Of a stretch of DNA of 64,000 nucleotides, positions 49,001 to 53,483 are shown piece by piece. The notes below the pieces were generated by a model, which ran no database searches, was not told the DNA's origin, and saw only the letters and a list, made by a program, of their open reading frames with translations. Origin of the DNA: Prochlorococcus marinus str. MIT 0912. Its GTDB lineage: Bacteria > Cyanobacteriota > Cyanobacteriia > PCC-6307 > Cyanobiaceae. Every line of letters begins with the position of its first letter. Position 1 is the first letter of the stretch. Position numbers and translations under genes: made by a program. The DNA lies in contig NZ_CP114783.1 in assembly GCF_027359595.1 (NCBI RefSeq), positions 372,001 through 436,000 of the forward strand. The letters run 5' to 3'.

Positions 49001-49159
49001 TCATGAAAGTCTTATTTGATTTTCAATCGAATAAGCATTGCTTGTGCAGGCCTCATTGCCTGTAACTTGAGAAACAGCAATAACCAGAAGACTTAGAGAA
49101 CCAACTGCTAAAGAAATTGTTCTAATAGCACTGGCTTTCTTAGAGATTTTCTTGCTCAT
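49001..49159 (-). CDS. 52-aa single-helix protein
   Basis: Preferred start at 49159: MSKKISKKASAIRTISLAVG, SLSLLVIAVSQVTGNEACTS. A basic N-terminus and one helix, then a polar tail, as in signal-anchored peptides. An upstream ATG (49219) adds 20 residues with no pattern. Confidence 0.5.
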   Translation of the reverse strand: MSKKISKKASAIRTISLAVGSLSLLVIAVSQVTGNEACTSNAYSIENQIRLS

Positions 49160-49309
49160 ATCAAAAAATCTTGATGTAATAAGAATATGATAACTATCCA
49201 AGCATAAAAGAGTATCCATTGATACCTGGTAGAAATAATTACCTAAAAATTATTAGAACAATTCTGAATAGAGGTAAATCAATTGATAGCTAGATTAAAA
49301 TTGATTGCT

Positions 49310-49639
49310 TTAATTACAAGCTTGAGATGGTTGTTGCGAGCTTTCTTTTAAAAGTTCAATCCAATCTTGCAAAGAATTTAATGAGTCAATATTCAATTGG
49401 TAATAAACCCATCTACCAGTCTGCCTATCGGTAATCAAACCTGCGTCTTTTAAAACTTTTAAATGAAAAGATATTTTCGATTGAGCCAATCCAATTTCAT
49501 TGATCAAATCGCAAACACATCGTTCTCCTCCTGAAAGAGACTCAATGATTTGCAATCGCAATGGATCAGATAAAGCTTTTAGCAATTTCCTAGCCATTGC
49601 ATTTTCAAGAACTACTTCGCTCTTTGTCGCTGTGGCCAT
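49310..49639 (-). CDS. arsR: ArsR-family arsenic-responsive repressor
   Basis: 109-110 residues. Winged helix-turn-helix ArsR/SmtB fold: ARKLLKALSDPLRLQIIESL, then GGERCVCDLINEIGLAQSKI, where the CVCDL box is the As(III)/Sb(III)-binding site of ArsR, and HLKVLKDAGLITDRQTGRWV as recognition helix and wing. As(III) binding releases it from DNA. Divergent from the GAPDH-arsJ operon; a 16-bp palindrome between them is the likely operator. A second in-frame ATG lies one codon upstream, at 49642. Confidence 0.93.
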   Translation of the reverse strand: MATATKSEVVLENAMARKLLKALSDPLRLQIIESLSGGERCVCDLINEIGLAQSKISFHLKVLKDAGLITDRQTGRWVYYQLNIDSLNSLQDWIELLKESSQQPSQACN

Positions 49640-49710
49640 CACAGAAGGAAAAATATAATCACATGATAAAACAAACCGCAGAAAAGGCTTGCATCGACAA
49701 ACCTCTATAC

Positions 49711-49726
49711 ATCAATATAAATTGAT
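49711..49726. promoter_or_regulatory. Putative ArsR operator 1 (arsR/GAPDH intergenic)
   Basis: ATCAATATAAATTGAT, a perfect inverted repeat of six bases with a four-base centre, in the middle of the arsR/GAPDH intergenic region. It overlaps the -35 position of a plus-strand promoter whose TATAAT lies at 49735-49740. A near-identical palindrome occurs upstream of pstS. Confidence 0.65.
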
Positions 49727-49777
49727 ATGAGGAATATAATCCTTTATTGATTCACTCAATCAACTCAATTACACGTT

Positions 49778-50803
49778 ATGCGAATCGGTATTAATGGTTT
49801 CGGTCGAATAGGACGACTTGTTCTAAGAGCACTCTGGGGTAAAGAAAATATCGAGATTACACATATCAACGATCCATTGGGTGATGCAAAGGGAGCTGCG
49901 CATTTACTTGAATTTGATTCAGTACATGGTCGTTGGAACAAAGCAATAAGCAACGACCAAAACAACCTAAGTATCGAAAGTCAACCAATATCTTTTTCTC
50001 AAGAAAGTGATTTCACAAAAGTGCCATGGAAGGAAAAAGGAATAGAACTAATTCTCGAATGTTCAGGAAAATTCAAAACCCCTCAAACATTAAATCCATA
50101 TTTCGATACTCTTGGAATGAAAAGAGTTGTCGTTGCATGTCCTGTTAAAGGTGAAATACAGGGAGAGGATGCTCTAAATATTGTCTACGGTATTAATCAT
50201 GATTTATATGAGCCCAATAAACATCGCTTAGTAACAGCAGCATCCTGCACAACTAATTGCTTAGCACCAGTCGTGAAGGTCGTTAATCAAAACTTTGGTA
50301 TTAAGCATGGAAGCATCACTACACTCCATGACCTAACAAATACTCAGGTAATCGTCGATTCATTTAAGCCAGATTTAAGAAGAGCCAGAAGCGGATCACA
50401 AAGCTTAATTCCAACAACGACAGGATCAGCAAAAGCGATAGGGATGATATTCCCTGAATTACAAGGAAAATTAAATGGTCATGCAGTTCGAGTTCCTCTC
50501 CTCAATGGATCTTTAACTGATGCTGTATTTGAATTAGAAAAAGAGGTCACGCAAGAAGAAGTCAATCATGTGTTCAAAAAAGCTTCCGAAGAAGAACTAA
50601 AAGGAATACTTGGTTACGAAGAAAAGCCACTTGTATCAATCGATTATGTCAATGACTCGAGAAGCTCAATCATTGATGCTCTCTCAACCATGGTGGTCAA
50701 TAAAACTCAACTGAAAGTCTATATTTGGTATGACAATGAATGGGGTTATAGCTGTCGAATGGCAGATCTCGTTTGCCATGTCATAAATCTCGAAAAAGGC
50801 TAA
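49778..50803 (+). CDS. GAPDH of the arsenate-detoxification operon
   Basis: 341 residues. Type I glyceraldehyde-3-phosphate dehydrogenase with [18 protein letters not shown] (NAD site) and the catalytic [12 protein letters not shown] (Cys near residue 155). It is immediately followed (10 bp) by arsJ. In this established gene pair the GAPDH uses arsenate in place of phosphate to form 1-arseno-3-phosphoglycerate, which ArsJ exports. It could also be the glycolytic Gap1, but the ars context and no other ars enzyme favour the detoxification role. Confidence 0.9.
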
Positions 50804-50813
50804 AAATAAAAAC

Positions 50814-52076
50814 ATGCGATTAACTGCATTGCAACAATATGGAATAGTAACGACCAACTATTGGGCATTCACACTGACAGATGGTGCTCTAAGAATGCTA
50901 GTGATTTTTCACTTTCATAGCCTTGGATATACAACATTAGAAATTGCATTCTTATTCCTTTTCTATGAGTTCTTTGGCGTCATCACTAATCTCTATGGAG
51001 GTTGGATAGGAGCAAGATATGGATTACGTCTAACACTTTGGGTAGGAACTCTTTTACAAATCGGCGCCTTATTGATGTTGATACCCGTTTCAAGTGGTTG
51101 GTCGAAACTTTTGAGTGTCATTTATGTCATGGTTGCTCAAGCGATTAGTGGCATAGCAAAAGATCTCAATAAGATGAGTGCTAAAAGTGCCATCAAAACT
51201 GTCGTTCCAGACTCCTCAGAAGAAGATGGTGGAAATAATCAATTATTTAAATGGGTAGCTATCTTAACTGGTTCAAAAAATGCTCTCAAAGGAGTTGGAT
51301 TCTTTCTTGGTGGACTTTTGCTTACAAGTTTTGGATTTAATAAAGCAGTTGAATTAATGGCTATCGGTTTAGGTCTGTCATTTCTAATGACATTAATTTT
51401 GCCTGGAGATATTGGAAAGATGAAAAACAAACCAATCTTTAAAGACTTATTTTCTAAATCTCAAGGGATCAATGTCCTCTCTTTTGCACGCTTTTTTCTC
51501 TTTGGGGCAAGAGACGTATGGTTCGTCGTTGCACTACCTGTTTTTCTTGAAACGTATCTAAATTGGAATTTTTCTGAGATTGGAGCTTTTCTAGGATTGT
51601 GGGTTATTGGTTATGGTTTTATTCAAGCGTTTGCGCCCTCTTTAAGAAATTTATGGGGAAATAAAACAAGCCCAGGAGTTTCTTCTGTTCAATTCTGGAG
51701 CGCTGCCTTAACTGCAATACCAGCGCTAATAGCAATAGCACTATGGCGACAAAGCAATCCAGAAATAGCAATTACAGCTGGATTGATATTATTTGGGTTC
51801 ATATTTGCAATGAACTCATCAATACATTCATATATGGTTCTTGCTTATACGGACAAGGAAAACGTGAGTCTAAACGTCGGCTTCTATTACATGGCAAATG
51901 CGGCAGGGAGACTGATTGGTACTCTCCTATCAGGAGTTTTATTCATGATTGGAGCTAATGCCTCTATAGGAATGCAACTATGTTTATGGTGTTCAAGCCT
52001 ATTTGTATTTATCTCATTGTTGACTAGTTTACGACTACCTCCGGTATCAAATACAAAAGCCATAAAAAATTCCTAA
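50814..52076 (+). CDS. arsJ: Organoarsenical efflux permease ArsJ (MFS)
   Basis: 420 residues, major-facilitator type with about 12 membrane helices; LTALQQYGIVTTNYWAFTLT, DGALRMLVIFHFHSLGYTTL and NLYGGWIGARYGLRLTLWVG are typical of the ArsJ branch. It exports 1-arseno-3-phosphoglycerate, which breaks down to arsenate outside the cell. Second gene of the GAPDH-arsJ pair. Confidence 0.9.
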   Translation: MRLTALQQYGIVTTNYWAFTLTDGALRMLVIFHFHSLGYTTLEIAFLFLFYEFFGVITNLYGGWIGARYGLRLTLWVGTLLQIGALLMLIPVSSGWSKLLSVIYVMVAQAISGIAKDLNKMSAKSAIKTVVPDSSEEDGGNNQLFKWVAILTGSKNALKGVGFFLGGLLLTSFGFNKAVELMAIGLGLSFLMTLILPGDIGKMKNKPIFKDLFSKSQGINVLSFARFFLFGARDVWFVVALPVFLETYLNWNFSEIGAFLGLWVIGYGFIQAFAPSLRNLWGNKTSPGVSSVQFWSAALTAIPALIAIALWRQSNPEIAITAGLILFGFIFAMNSSIHSYMVLAYTDKENVSLNVGFYYMANAAGRLIGTLLSGVLFMIGANASIGMQLCLWCSSLFVFISLLTSLRLPPVSNTKAIKNS

Positions 52077-52117
52077 GACCTTCAATTAAAAAAATTAAAT
52101 ATCAAGGGAAAGAAGGA

Positions 52118-52195
52118 CTACTGAACCTCTGATTCTCTGTCATATTCAAGTTCAACTTCATTCATCCAAGCTGCTTTCGTTTTAAAGTTTTCCAT
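52118..52195 (-). CDS. Possible 25-aa peptide
   Basis: MENFKTKAAWMNEVELEYDR then ESEVQ. Helical and acidic; overlaps the next minus-strand gene by 14 bp. Only a clean frame supports it. Confidence 0.3.
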   Translation of the reverse strand: MENFKTKAAWMNEVELEYDRESEVQ

Positions 52196-52295
52196 GCTCG
52201 GCTAGATGTAATCCCTCAATCGAAATAAATAAAACTAGTAGTGAAACTGGAATCAACCAGATGGGTGATCCAACTATTTCCTTCCAGTTATTCAT
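52182..52295 (-). CDS. 37-aa single-helix microprotein
   Basis: MNNWKEIVGSPIWLIPVSLL, VLFISIEGLHLAEHGKL. One helix and a short polar end. Located between arsJ and pstS, convergent with arsJ. Family unknown. Confidence 0.45.
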   Translation of the reverse strand: MNNWKEIVGSPIWLIPVSLLVLFISIEGLHLAEHGKL

Positions 52296-52374
52296 TGATT
52301 GTTTTTTTCATATTAAAGAGCTTTTTTTAAGCTTAAGTTAAGAAGTTACTAGCAAGCAAAAAAAAAATGACAAT

Positions 52375-52400
52375 AAAAAAAGGAGGCTAATGCCTCCTTT
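52375..52400 (-). terminator. Terminator of pstS
   Basis: AAAGGAGGC (52379-52387) pairs with GCCTCCTTT (52392-52400), four-base loop; on the minus strand it continues into T residues. Twenty bp after the pstS stop. Confidence 0.85.
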
Positions 52401-52420
52401 ATAAGAGCATGAGGTTTAAT

Positions 52421-53392
52421 TTAGTTACCAATACGCTTAACCGCAGCACGAGAGTTGGCAAGAATATCACCTTTAAGAGGTACAAATCCAAGAGAGGGAG
52501 CCTTAGCCTGGGCTTTATCACTGAGCAAGTAGTTAAGTGATTCTTGGACGGCTTTAGTATTTCTACCATTACCAGTCTCGTAAGCTAGAATCCATGTAAG
52601 CGTAGCGATTGGATATGCACCCTTAGCTTTTGGGTTAGGATTTTTACCAGCTAAATTTTTATCTAGTTTTATACCATTAAGAGCTTTTGTTCCTGCTTCT
52701 GTTGTTGGTTTTAAAAACTCACCAGATAAATTTTGAAGAGCGGCAGCTTTAATTACACCTCTAATATATGACTGGTTTACATAACCAATTGCTCCGGGAG
52801 TATTACGAATAACTCCAGCAACACCAGCATTACCTTTTCCACCAACGCCAGAAGGCCAAGCGACAGATTTACCTGTACCTAGAGTCCAGGTCTTTGAGAA
52901 AGCTTGCATGGAATTTGTAAAAGCCTTCGTAGTACCTGAACCATCAGAACGATGCGCCCAAGTTAGTTTTCCTTCAGGGCAACCAACCTCATTCCAGTTT
53001 GTAATTTTACCCATAGCAACCCGAACAGCTTGCTCTTGTGTAAGTTTAAGATCGCAATCATAGTTATAACCAAAGGCAATAGTGCCGCCAACCATTGGGA
53101 TTTGAACTAATCCACGAGTAACTTTTGCAATATCAGTTGCTTTCATTGGATCATCAGACGCACCGAAATTAACGGTTTCATCAATGAAAGCTTTACGACC
53201 AGAACCTGAACCAACAGCTTGATAGTTCACACGTGGACCACCTTCTTTAGCTAAGTCAGAGAACCAACGAGTGTAGATCTTAGCGGGGAAAGAAGCTCCT
53301 GCTCCGCTGAGTCGAGCACCCGCAAAGGCACTTCCTCCTGAGCCAAGAATAATTAAAGATGAAAGAACAAGACTCTTCTTAGCAAAGCTCAT
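52421..53392 (-). CDS. pstS: Phosphate ABC transporter substrate-binding protein
   Basis: 323 residues from the ATG at 53392, giving signal peptide MSFAKKSLVLSSLIILGSGG ending SAFA. Upstream ATGs exist at 53425 and 53446, but the two ArsR-type palindromes sit only 3-37 bp before the latter, so the internal start leaves room for a normal promoter. Mature features: GAGASFPAKIYTRWF, GSGSGRKAFIDETVNFGAS (phosphate-binding TGSG loop variant), and RSDGSGTTKAF. Binds phosphate in the periplasm. The pstCAB genes are not in the window. Confidence 0.93.
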   Translation of the reverse strand: MSFAKKSLVLSSLIILGSGGSAFAGARLSGAGASFPAKIYTRWFSDLAKEGGPRVNYQAVGSGSGRKAFIDETVNFGASDDPMKATDIAKVTRGLVQIPMVGGTIAFGYNYDCDLKLTQEQAVRVAMGKITNWNEVGCPEGKLTWAHRSDGSGTTKAFTNSMQAFSKTWTLGTGKSVAWPSGVGGKGNAGVAGVIRNTPGAIGYVNQSYIRGVIKAAALQNLSGEFLKPTTEAGTKALNGIKLDKNLAGKNPNPKAKGAYPIATLTWILAYETGNGRNTKAVQESLNYLLSDKAQAKAPSLGFVPLKGDILANSRAAVKRIGN

Positions 53393-53448
53393 CAAAGGTC
53401 TGCGACGTAAAAGCAATGAAAGCATAGGACGCGAAGGCAATGACATTA

Positions 53449-53464
53449 ATCAATATTAATTGAT
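53449..53464. promoter_or_regulatory. Putative ArsR operator 2 (upstream of pstS)
   Basis: ATCAATATTAATTGAT, a perfect six-base inverted repeat around ATTA, differing from operator 1 (49711-49726) by two bases in the centre only. Fifty-seven bp upstream of the preferred pstS start. Confidence 0.6.
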
Positions 53465-53467
53465 ATA

Positions 53468-53483
53468 ATCAATATAGCTTGAT
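53468..53483. promoter_or_regulatory. Putative ArsR operator 3 (upstream of pstS)
   Basis: ATCAATATAGCTTGAT: ATCAA and TTGAT arms with a six-base centre. Nineteen bp centre-to-centre from operator 2, so two dimers could bind side by side over the pstS promoter. Confidence 0.5.

Follow-up and report, generated by a model that had tools for sequence, protein, structure and literature searches.

The palindrome ATCAA-N6-TTGAT, which stands upstream of arsenic and phosphate genes in a 64,000-nucleotide stretch of Prochlorococcus marinus str. MIT 0912 (NZ_CP114783.1, positions 372,001 to 436,000; hereafter the window), is very likely the operator of a local ArsR regulon that joins arsenate export to the supply of a phosphate-binding protein and that is exchanged with control by the phosphate (Pho) regulon. 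Judged from sequence comparisons, arsenic sensing is probably wired into phosphate uptake in Prochlorococcus. The window contains three perfect copies of the palindrome, one in the arsR/gap3 intergenic region and two forming a tandem before pstS.

The genes concerned are readily assigned, all four scoring above their NCBIfam cut-offs. The product of arsR (49310..49642, minus strand; ATG start probably at 49639) is an ArsR/SmtB-family repressor with a CVC motif, and its winged-helix ArsR domain exceeds curated cut-offs for this group of metalloregulators (HTH_metalloreg NF033788, 98 bits, cut-off 55; PF01022, 65.8 bits, cut-off 22). It is divergent from gap3 (49778..50803, plus strand), encoding an ArsJ-associated glyceraldehyde-3-phosphate dehydrogenase (GAPDH; NF033735, 555 bits, cut-off 450), and arsJ (50814..52076, plus strand), encoding an organoarsenical efflux transporter of the major facilitator superfamily (MFS; NF033734, 575 bits, cut-off 400); adjacent and both above curated cut-offs, these two genes constitute an ArsJ/GAPDH arsenate-export module. 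Convergent with arsJ lies pstS (52421..53392 from its conserved start, minus strand; TIGR00975, 232 bits, cut-off 205), encoding the phosphate-binding protein and found as a single copy in the genome. The pstS frame is open from 53446 and its first start codon is not kept in all relatives; the conserved start (MSFAKKS) at 53392 leaves 56 bp between the gene and the nearer palindrome.

The source genome is a single contig of 1,898,947 bases, and the nearest named relatives of its pstS are found in Prochlorococcus single-cell genomes. We take the own-genus clade of the window to be the "LLI" Prochlorococcus, and genus g18, from which 60 genomes of at least 95% completeness were used, to be high-light Prochlorococcus; both labels are used in this sense below.

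Palindromes upstream of arsR/gap3 and pstS

The predicted operator in the arsR/gap3 intergenic region (ATCAATATAAATTGAT) occupies 49711..49726. The pstS-proximal half of the tandem (ATCAATATTAATTGAT) lies at 53449..53464 and the distal half (ATCAATATAGCTTGAT) at 53468..53483, each predicted from the palindrome match and its conservation. A first-pass annotation of this DNA had described a palindrome between arsR and the GAPDH gene that recurs twice before pstS. All three are present as described, except that the pstS copies are separated by 3 bp (53465-53467; 19 bp centre to centre) rather than the 4 bp given. A promoter-like match (11/12) at 53440-53469 on the plus strand overlaps the tandem and faces away from pstS; such matches are not enriched in the region (5 observed vs 11.1 in shuffles).

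The frequency of the single palindrome calls for caution. With up to two mismatches, ATCAATATNNNTTGAT matches the two strands of the window 29 times in all, where 10.9 would be expected and no more than 20 were seen in any of 100 shuffles; genome-wide, the plain palindrome occurs 35 times, compared with 5 for the reversed-pattern control. Because 24 of the 35 lie inside open reading frames (ORFs) of at least 90 amino acids, a lone palindrome is weak evidence, and the notion that any ATCAA-N6-TTGAT is an operator was rejected. Among the 11 copies outside ORFs, four are the arsR/gap3 site, the two pstS sites and a further site at 49160 described below; near six of the other seven, no arsenic or phosphate-uptake gene was recognised when translations were judged by eye, with no family search. 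The earlier annotation had been wary of a palindrome common throughout the genome; this applies to the single form, which is fairly common, but not to the tandem.

The tandem, meaning a pair of exact palindromes with 2-3 bp between them, is found once in the window's genome and in 18 of 41 own-genus genomes; family-wide, 131 of 400 genomes, from 33 of 59 genera, have it. The reversed control gives 0 in each case. Placed by eye, 14 of the 20 own-genus sites immediately precede pstS and the other 6 precede gap3/arsR. For the family-wide sites, counted from the matches listed, placement covers only a minority: in 20 fetched regions, chosen for holding tandems and 17 of them from outside the genus, all tandems but one are at gap3/arsR or pstS. 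The exception (L213 6722-6756, genome G118) lies about 1 kb beyond arsR without an evident target gene; a single base distinguishes it from the tandem in the pstS promoter of G061, and it may be what remains of a lost pstS.

Placement is strictest in the high-light set, where each of the 48 exact tandems precedes either arsR (33) or pstS (15). Every arsR tandem has a 2-bp spacer and stands 68-73 bp from the match, and 14 of the 15 pstS tandems have a 3-bp spacer. At gap3/arsR, the window's clade has one palindrome and other lineages a tandem with a 2-bp spacer. In the complete genome G092, the order tandem-pstS-arsR forms an apparent two-gene operon (L216 6888-8294), with no gap3 or arsJ found within the 14 kb fetched. 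Furthermore, a small group of related high-light strains without PhoB carries a palindrome between arsR and pstCAB, exact before pstC in L209 (11058-11073) and L210 (10443-10458) and with one mismatch in L211. A general ArsR site at pstCAB was dropped as a candidate, as 20 other high-light genomes have no palindrome, allowing up to one mismatch, after arsR.

Across relatives, the inner bases and flanks of the palindromes change while the arms stay, and the arrangement of sites is kept where ArsR is only about 49-69% identical. In LLI pstS tandems (15 unique rows, two loci of identical upstream sequence with deleted sites, L051 and L137, left out), variable columns number 6 of 20 in the arms and 95 of 118 in the flanks (p=1.4e-5). 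At LLI arsR/gap3, the arms are constant in 20 unique sequences and 42 of 119 flank columns vary (p=0.03), in a test that leans towards constancy as its rows required two short markers, one including the right arm. The single palindrome at Pho-type LLI pstS is represented by 5 near-identical rows and is uninformative in this respect.

ArsR and PhoB as candidate regulators of pstS

The palindrome is probably bound by the local ArsR, as tandem presence follows ArsR presence. In the high-light set, the tandem occurs in 34 of 46 ArsR-bearing genomes and in none of 14 ArsR-less ones (Fisher p=5.6e-7; this p-value and that of the PhoB comparison below ignore relatedness). In ArsR-less G292, the pstS tandem has decayed, with one mismatch per half. 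At E<=1e-12, a single ArsR match was obtained in the window's genome. Additionally, the CVC motif, of the CxC type that marks As(III)-sensing ArsR proteins, is invariant in 11 of 11 aligned rows, which supports that part of the As(III) site assigned to ArsR in the first-pass annotation. Much of the presumed recognition helix is also common to these 11 diverse proteins, and this combination fits constant arms with changing inner bases. Together, the 48/48 placement, the ArsR co-occurrence and the arm conservation support the shared ArsR operator at gap3/arsR and pstS that had been put forward earlier.

One alternative is that pstS is an ordinary Pho-regulon gene, controlled by PhoB or a PhoB-like regulator through a Pho box, with the palindromes incidental. 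As a classic Pho target, pstS invites this interpretation: PhoB-linked copies in high-light genomes have Pho boxes scoring 13-15 and no tandem, on our own scorer, which is built from a consensus and has a maximum of 16. The window's genome also keeps five matches to the PhoB model, none above its cut-off, which are regulators found across the genus. It yields no PhoB ortholog at E<=1e-45, however, and the best score upstream of its pstS is 11/16, the commonest value in 2000 shuffles. With neither a Pho box nor a PhoB ortholog found, this pstS was not counted as a Pho-regulon member. The same pattern extends to all 14 own-genus pstS copies with an exact tandem, which score 9-11. Pho control of the window's pstS is accordingly improbable, and the earlier suggestion of ArsR rather than PhoB control fits this genome.

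Comparisons between genomes point to an exchange of the two promoter types. PhoB was found in 32 of the 60 high-light genomes, and an exact pstS tandem is present in 15 of 28 PhoB-less genomes vs 0 of 32 PhoB-bearing ones (p=7e-7); the second high-light pstS copy often has one palindrome. In the own genus, 14 of 31 pstS copies examined have the exact tandem, 12 of these 14 in genomes without a PhoB match, and every copy with a Pho score of at least 13 carries one exact palindrome. Two PhoB-bearing own-genus genomes score only 12. PhoB absence in this genus is uncertain because several of its genomes are incomplete. On a PstS tree of 87 rows, three promoter labels, which rest on our own Pho score, need 12 changes where the least possible is 2, and well-supported branches force at least 3 changes for the ArsR-type label; promoters have therefore switched between ArsR-type and Pho more than once. 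At locus L160 (genome G014), phoB is present, phoR is apparently truncated to a 152-aa ORF and pstS has a Pho box together with a single palindrome, which suggests PhoBR decay.

Besides the relatedness ignored by the p-values, several observations weigh against ArsR control exchanged with Pho control. Including L051 and L137, which lost their pstS sites, renders the arm-versus-flank test for pstS non-significant (p=0.53). Genome G297, counted as ArsR-bearing, has a stop inside the ArsR frame, and ArsR-less G367 and G277 still carry a single palindrome at the second pstS copy of the high-light group. In high-light G302, a pstS copy carries a Pho box although no PhoB match was obtained; G006 and G032 hold ArsR-type pstS together with PhoB, both having a second pstS; and 7 of the 10 own-genus pstS copies scoring at least 13 are in genomes without a PhoB match. 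The idea that Pho box and tandem strictly exclude each other in the own genus was rejected on account of these high-scoring PhoB-less copies and the two mixed genomes. As for the As(III) site, R773 ArsR has a third cysteine three residues after CVC. This residue is absent here, the 11 rows having I, V, M or T at its position, and R773-type three-cysteine membership is not claimed. A C-terminal cysteine is nearly invariant in the same rows.

Further sites at phoB, ptrA-like genes and beyond picocyanobacteria

Palindromes also stand before regulatory genes. Of 29 high-light phoB upstream regions, 27 have a perfect single copy near the gene and the other 2 a copy with one mismatch; these closely related rows come from 32 genomes, of which 31 were fetched and 2 were cut by contig ends. 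The palindrome further precedes phoB at 6 of 6 LLI loci, at L076 and at three loci of a further lineage, whose PhoB-like proteins are 42-45% identical (in all, L155-L160, L076, L182, L184, L213 and L319-L349). None of 23 other phoB-like rows, mostly non-cyanobacterial and two from the window's own genome, has it, and rows L061, L075 and L145 end at a contig or locus edge and are uninformative. The arm test for the high-light phoB site is weak (p=0.04, arms varying at 2 of 10 columns). ArsR may act above PhoB in these strains.

Among upstream regions of ptrA-like genes, which encode CRP-family proteins, an exact palindrome occurs in 12 of 22 unique sequences, all from non-LLI Prochlorococcus-like lineages (L065, L066, L068, L089, L152, L179, L191, L194, L195, L213, L218 and L226); none was found in 5 Synechococcus and 5 LLI sequences. 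Four ptrA-like loci carry a triple palindrome shared with a divergent pstS. The inner bases of the phoB and ptrA-like palindromes differ between lineages. As these are mostly single sites, the extension to phoB and ptrA is less certain than the case for pstS.

The ptrA-like sites bear on another explanation, in which phosphate and arsenic genes are under the joint control of a different regulator that recognises the palindrome, such as an FNR-like protein or PtrA of the CRP family. Inverted repeats are bound by CRP-type proteins too, and ptrA-like genes stand beside pstS in several lineages, with the palindrome before 12 of the 22. However, in an FNR box the order of the half-sites is reversed and 4 bp separate them, tandem presence follows ArsR, and PtrA matches reach only 58-69 bits in the window's genome, in G092 and in all 15 high-light genomes with a pstS tandem, as throughout the set. 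PtrA was rejected as the binder in the window's genome, where no ortholog was seen, and we consider a regulator of this kind unlikely overall. It is highly unlikely that the palindromes are AT-rich promoter sequence present by chance or synteny without operator function: the AT-rich genome, the 24 copies inside ORFs and the two loci that lost pstS sites would accommodate this, but the reversed control is 0 in 400 family genomes, all 48 exact high-light tandems fall at two loci, and the arms stay while inner bases and flanks change.

The fourth conserved palindrome of the window (49160..49175), which the first-pass annotation does not mention, lies downstream of arsR and abuts the start of a small ORF (49001..49159, minus strand; MSKKISKK..., 52 aa), its would-be target, which was read from the sequence and whose DNA is kept in LLI relatives. 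The arms are exact in 22 of 23 related loci, the site being lost in L228; with L228 left out, they are constant in 21 unique LLI rows, in which 3 of 6 inner positions vary (p=0.07 vs flanks, 0.04 vs inner bases). The ORF product is a possible new member of the arsenic response.

Outside the picocyanobacteria, five plasmid loci of filamentous cyanobacteria, found through ArsR, have the palindrome after an arsR-like gene, exact in Calothrix, Oscillatoria and Kovacikia and with one mismatch in Leptolyngbya and Nostoc. It sits before pstS in the four annotated loci; the Kovacikia record is unannotated. In phage, no tandem was found at pstS in the 4 cyanophage records examined of 97 with a match. 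Cyanophage P-SSM2 has a perfect palindrome (L391 127-142) 37 bp upstream of a DUF680 gene that precedes the phage pstS, and the three other stretches examined had no exact palindrome.

Published data on related cyanobacteria can be set beside these sites. The "Pho boxes" listed for the Anabaena sphX-gap3 genes (alr1094, Ava_3716; PMC1906773, Table 1) include ATCAACTTTTATTGAT and ATCAACTTTTTTTGAT. These boxes contain perfect ATCAA-N6-TTGAT and may be misassigned ArsR operators. In Nodularia under phosphate limitation, the ars-linked SphX shows little change, with values of 0.75 and 1.21 compared with 7.08 and 4.33 for the PstS of the Pst2 system (PMC9846622), as would fit an ars-linked gene that phosphate controls weakly; the ars-linked GAPDH gene changes more, at 1.57 and 2.41 (PMC9846622).

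Proposed mechanism and relation to known systems

In the absence of As(III), ArsR dimers would occupy the single arsR/gap3 site and the pstS tandem and block transcription. Arsenate entering with phosphate would presumably be reduced to As(III), releasing ArsR and switching on gap3-arsJ and pstS together. The gap3-arsJ products would then export arsenate as 1-arseno-3-phosphoglycerate, and extra PstS would increase phosphate capture when the As/P ratio becomes harmful. ArsR control would replace Pho control here because neither a PhoB nor a Pho box at pstS was found, while in PhoB-bearing high-light relatives the PhoB-linked pstS would use its Pho box and the ArsR-type site would act before phoB instead. 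A broader reading, to which we give somewhat less than even credence, places ArsR atop phosphate nutrition as a whole: it would control pstS directly in lineages that have lost PhoB, and would act on phoB or a ptrA-like regulator in those that retain them, with intracellular As(III) as a readout of As/P and a proxy for phosphate scarcity.

Available physiological reports bear on individual steps. Prochlorococcus is described as reducing arsenate to arsenite (PMC6426599), and the MED4 arsenate reductase gene is listed as unexpressed under the conditions considered (PMC5111396). PstS has a strong preference for phosphate, given as 500-850-fold (PMC3834237, citing Elias 2012). In Halomonas GFAJ-1, deleting either pst operon, one of them in an arsenic island, left arsenic resistance unchanged (PMC5930303), an argument against such a benefit from extra PstS.

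Prochlorococcus is dominant in oceans poor in phosphate, in which arsenate is a competitor of phosphate. Should ArsR govern pstS as proposed, and phoB or ptrA elsewhere, genes used as markers of phosphate stress may indicate arsenic too, and some of the published Pho boxes would have to be reinterpreted. Strains seeming to match several of the analysed genomes are, we presume, in culture; the ArsR-pstS relationship is therefore directly testable. One such consequence concerns SS120, which lacks PhoBR and is thought unable to regulate phosphate uptake (PMC3349580): PhoBR-less strains of this kind may regulate it through arsenic.

Among the matches listed, with subscription literature mostly outside reach, no paper was found that describes ArsR operators in front of pstS or phoB in marine picocyanobacteria. 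Within the literature searched, what appears to be new is the operator with its tandem form, its interchange with Pho control, and its occurrence before phoB and ptrA-like genes of Prochlorococcus. Already known, from the available text of the two sources, are the co-localisation of these genes in cyanobacteria (PMC4284471) and direct ArsR control of pstS and phoB in Agrobacterium (PMC7965956).

The cyanobacterial ars clusters with pstS, gap3 and MFS genes (PMC4284471) share the co-localisation with arsR, and arsenic co-regulation was already suspected there; the available part of that paper contains neither an operator nor a Pho comparison nor a link to phoB or ptrA. The Vibrio var operon arsR-gapdh-arsJ (PMC9601151) places the same export module under ArsR but, in the text available, has no phosphate-binding gene under ArsR, and its ArsR is suggested to sense As(V). 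The cyanobacterial Pho regulon (PMC1906773) shares pstS as a target but, in the portion available, operates through direct 8-bp repeats bound by SphR/PhoB. The closest parallel is Agrobacterium tumefaciens 5A, where pstS1 and phoB1 are bound and repressed by an As(III)-responsive ArsR1 (PMC7965956, citing Kang 2012, 2016) and gel shifts place two or more ArsR1 sites between these two genes (PMC7965956). Both systems have ArsR near phosphate genes. The window matches the Agrobacterium case in having, on the evidence of sequence and conservation, a predicted operator common to the pstS and ars promoters, and its PhoB-bearing relatives do so, by sequence, in having an ArsR-type site at phoB, a gene not found in the window's genome. 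As far as the available text goes, A. tumefaciens 5A differs in keeping a separate true Pho/Pst system, whereas the window's pstS is the only copy found and its ArsR-type promoter stands in place of Pho control. The one motif string given for that strain, TCGTCG-TGTC, also differs from the Prochlorococcus palindrome, and here a fixed tandem recurs across many genera.

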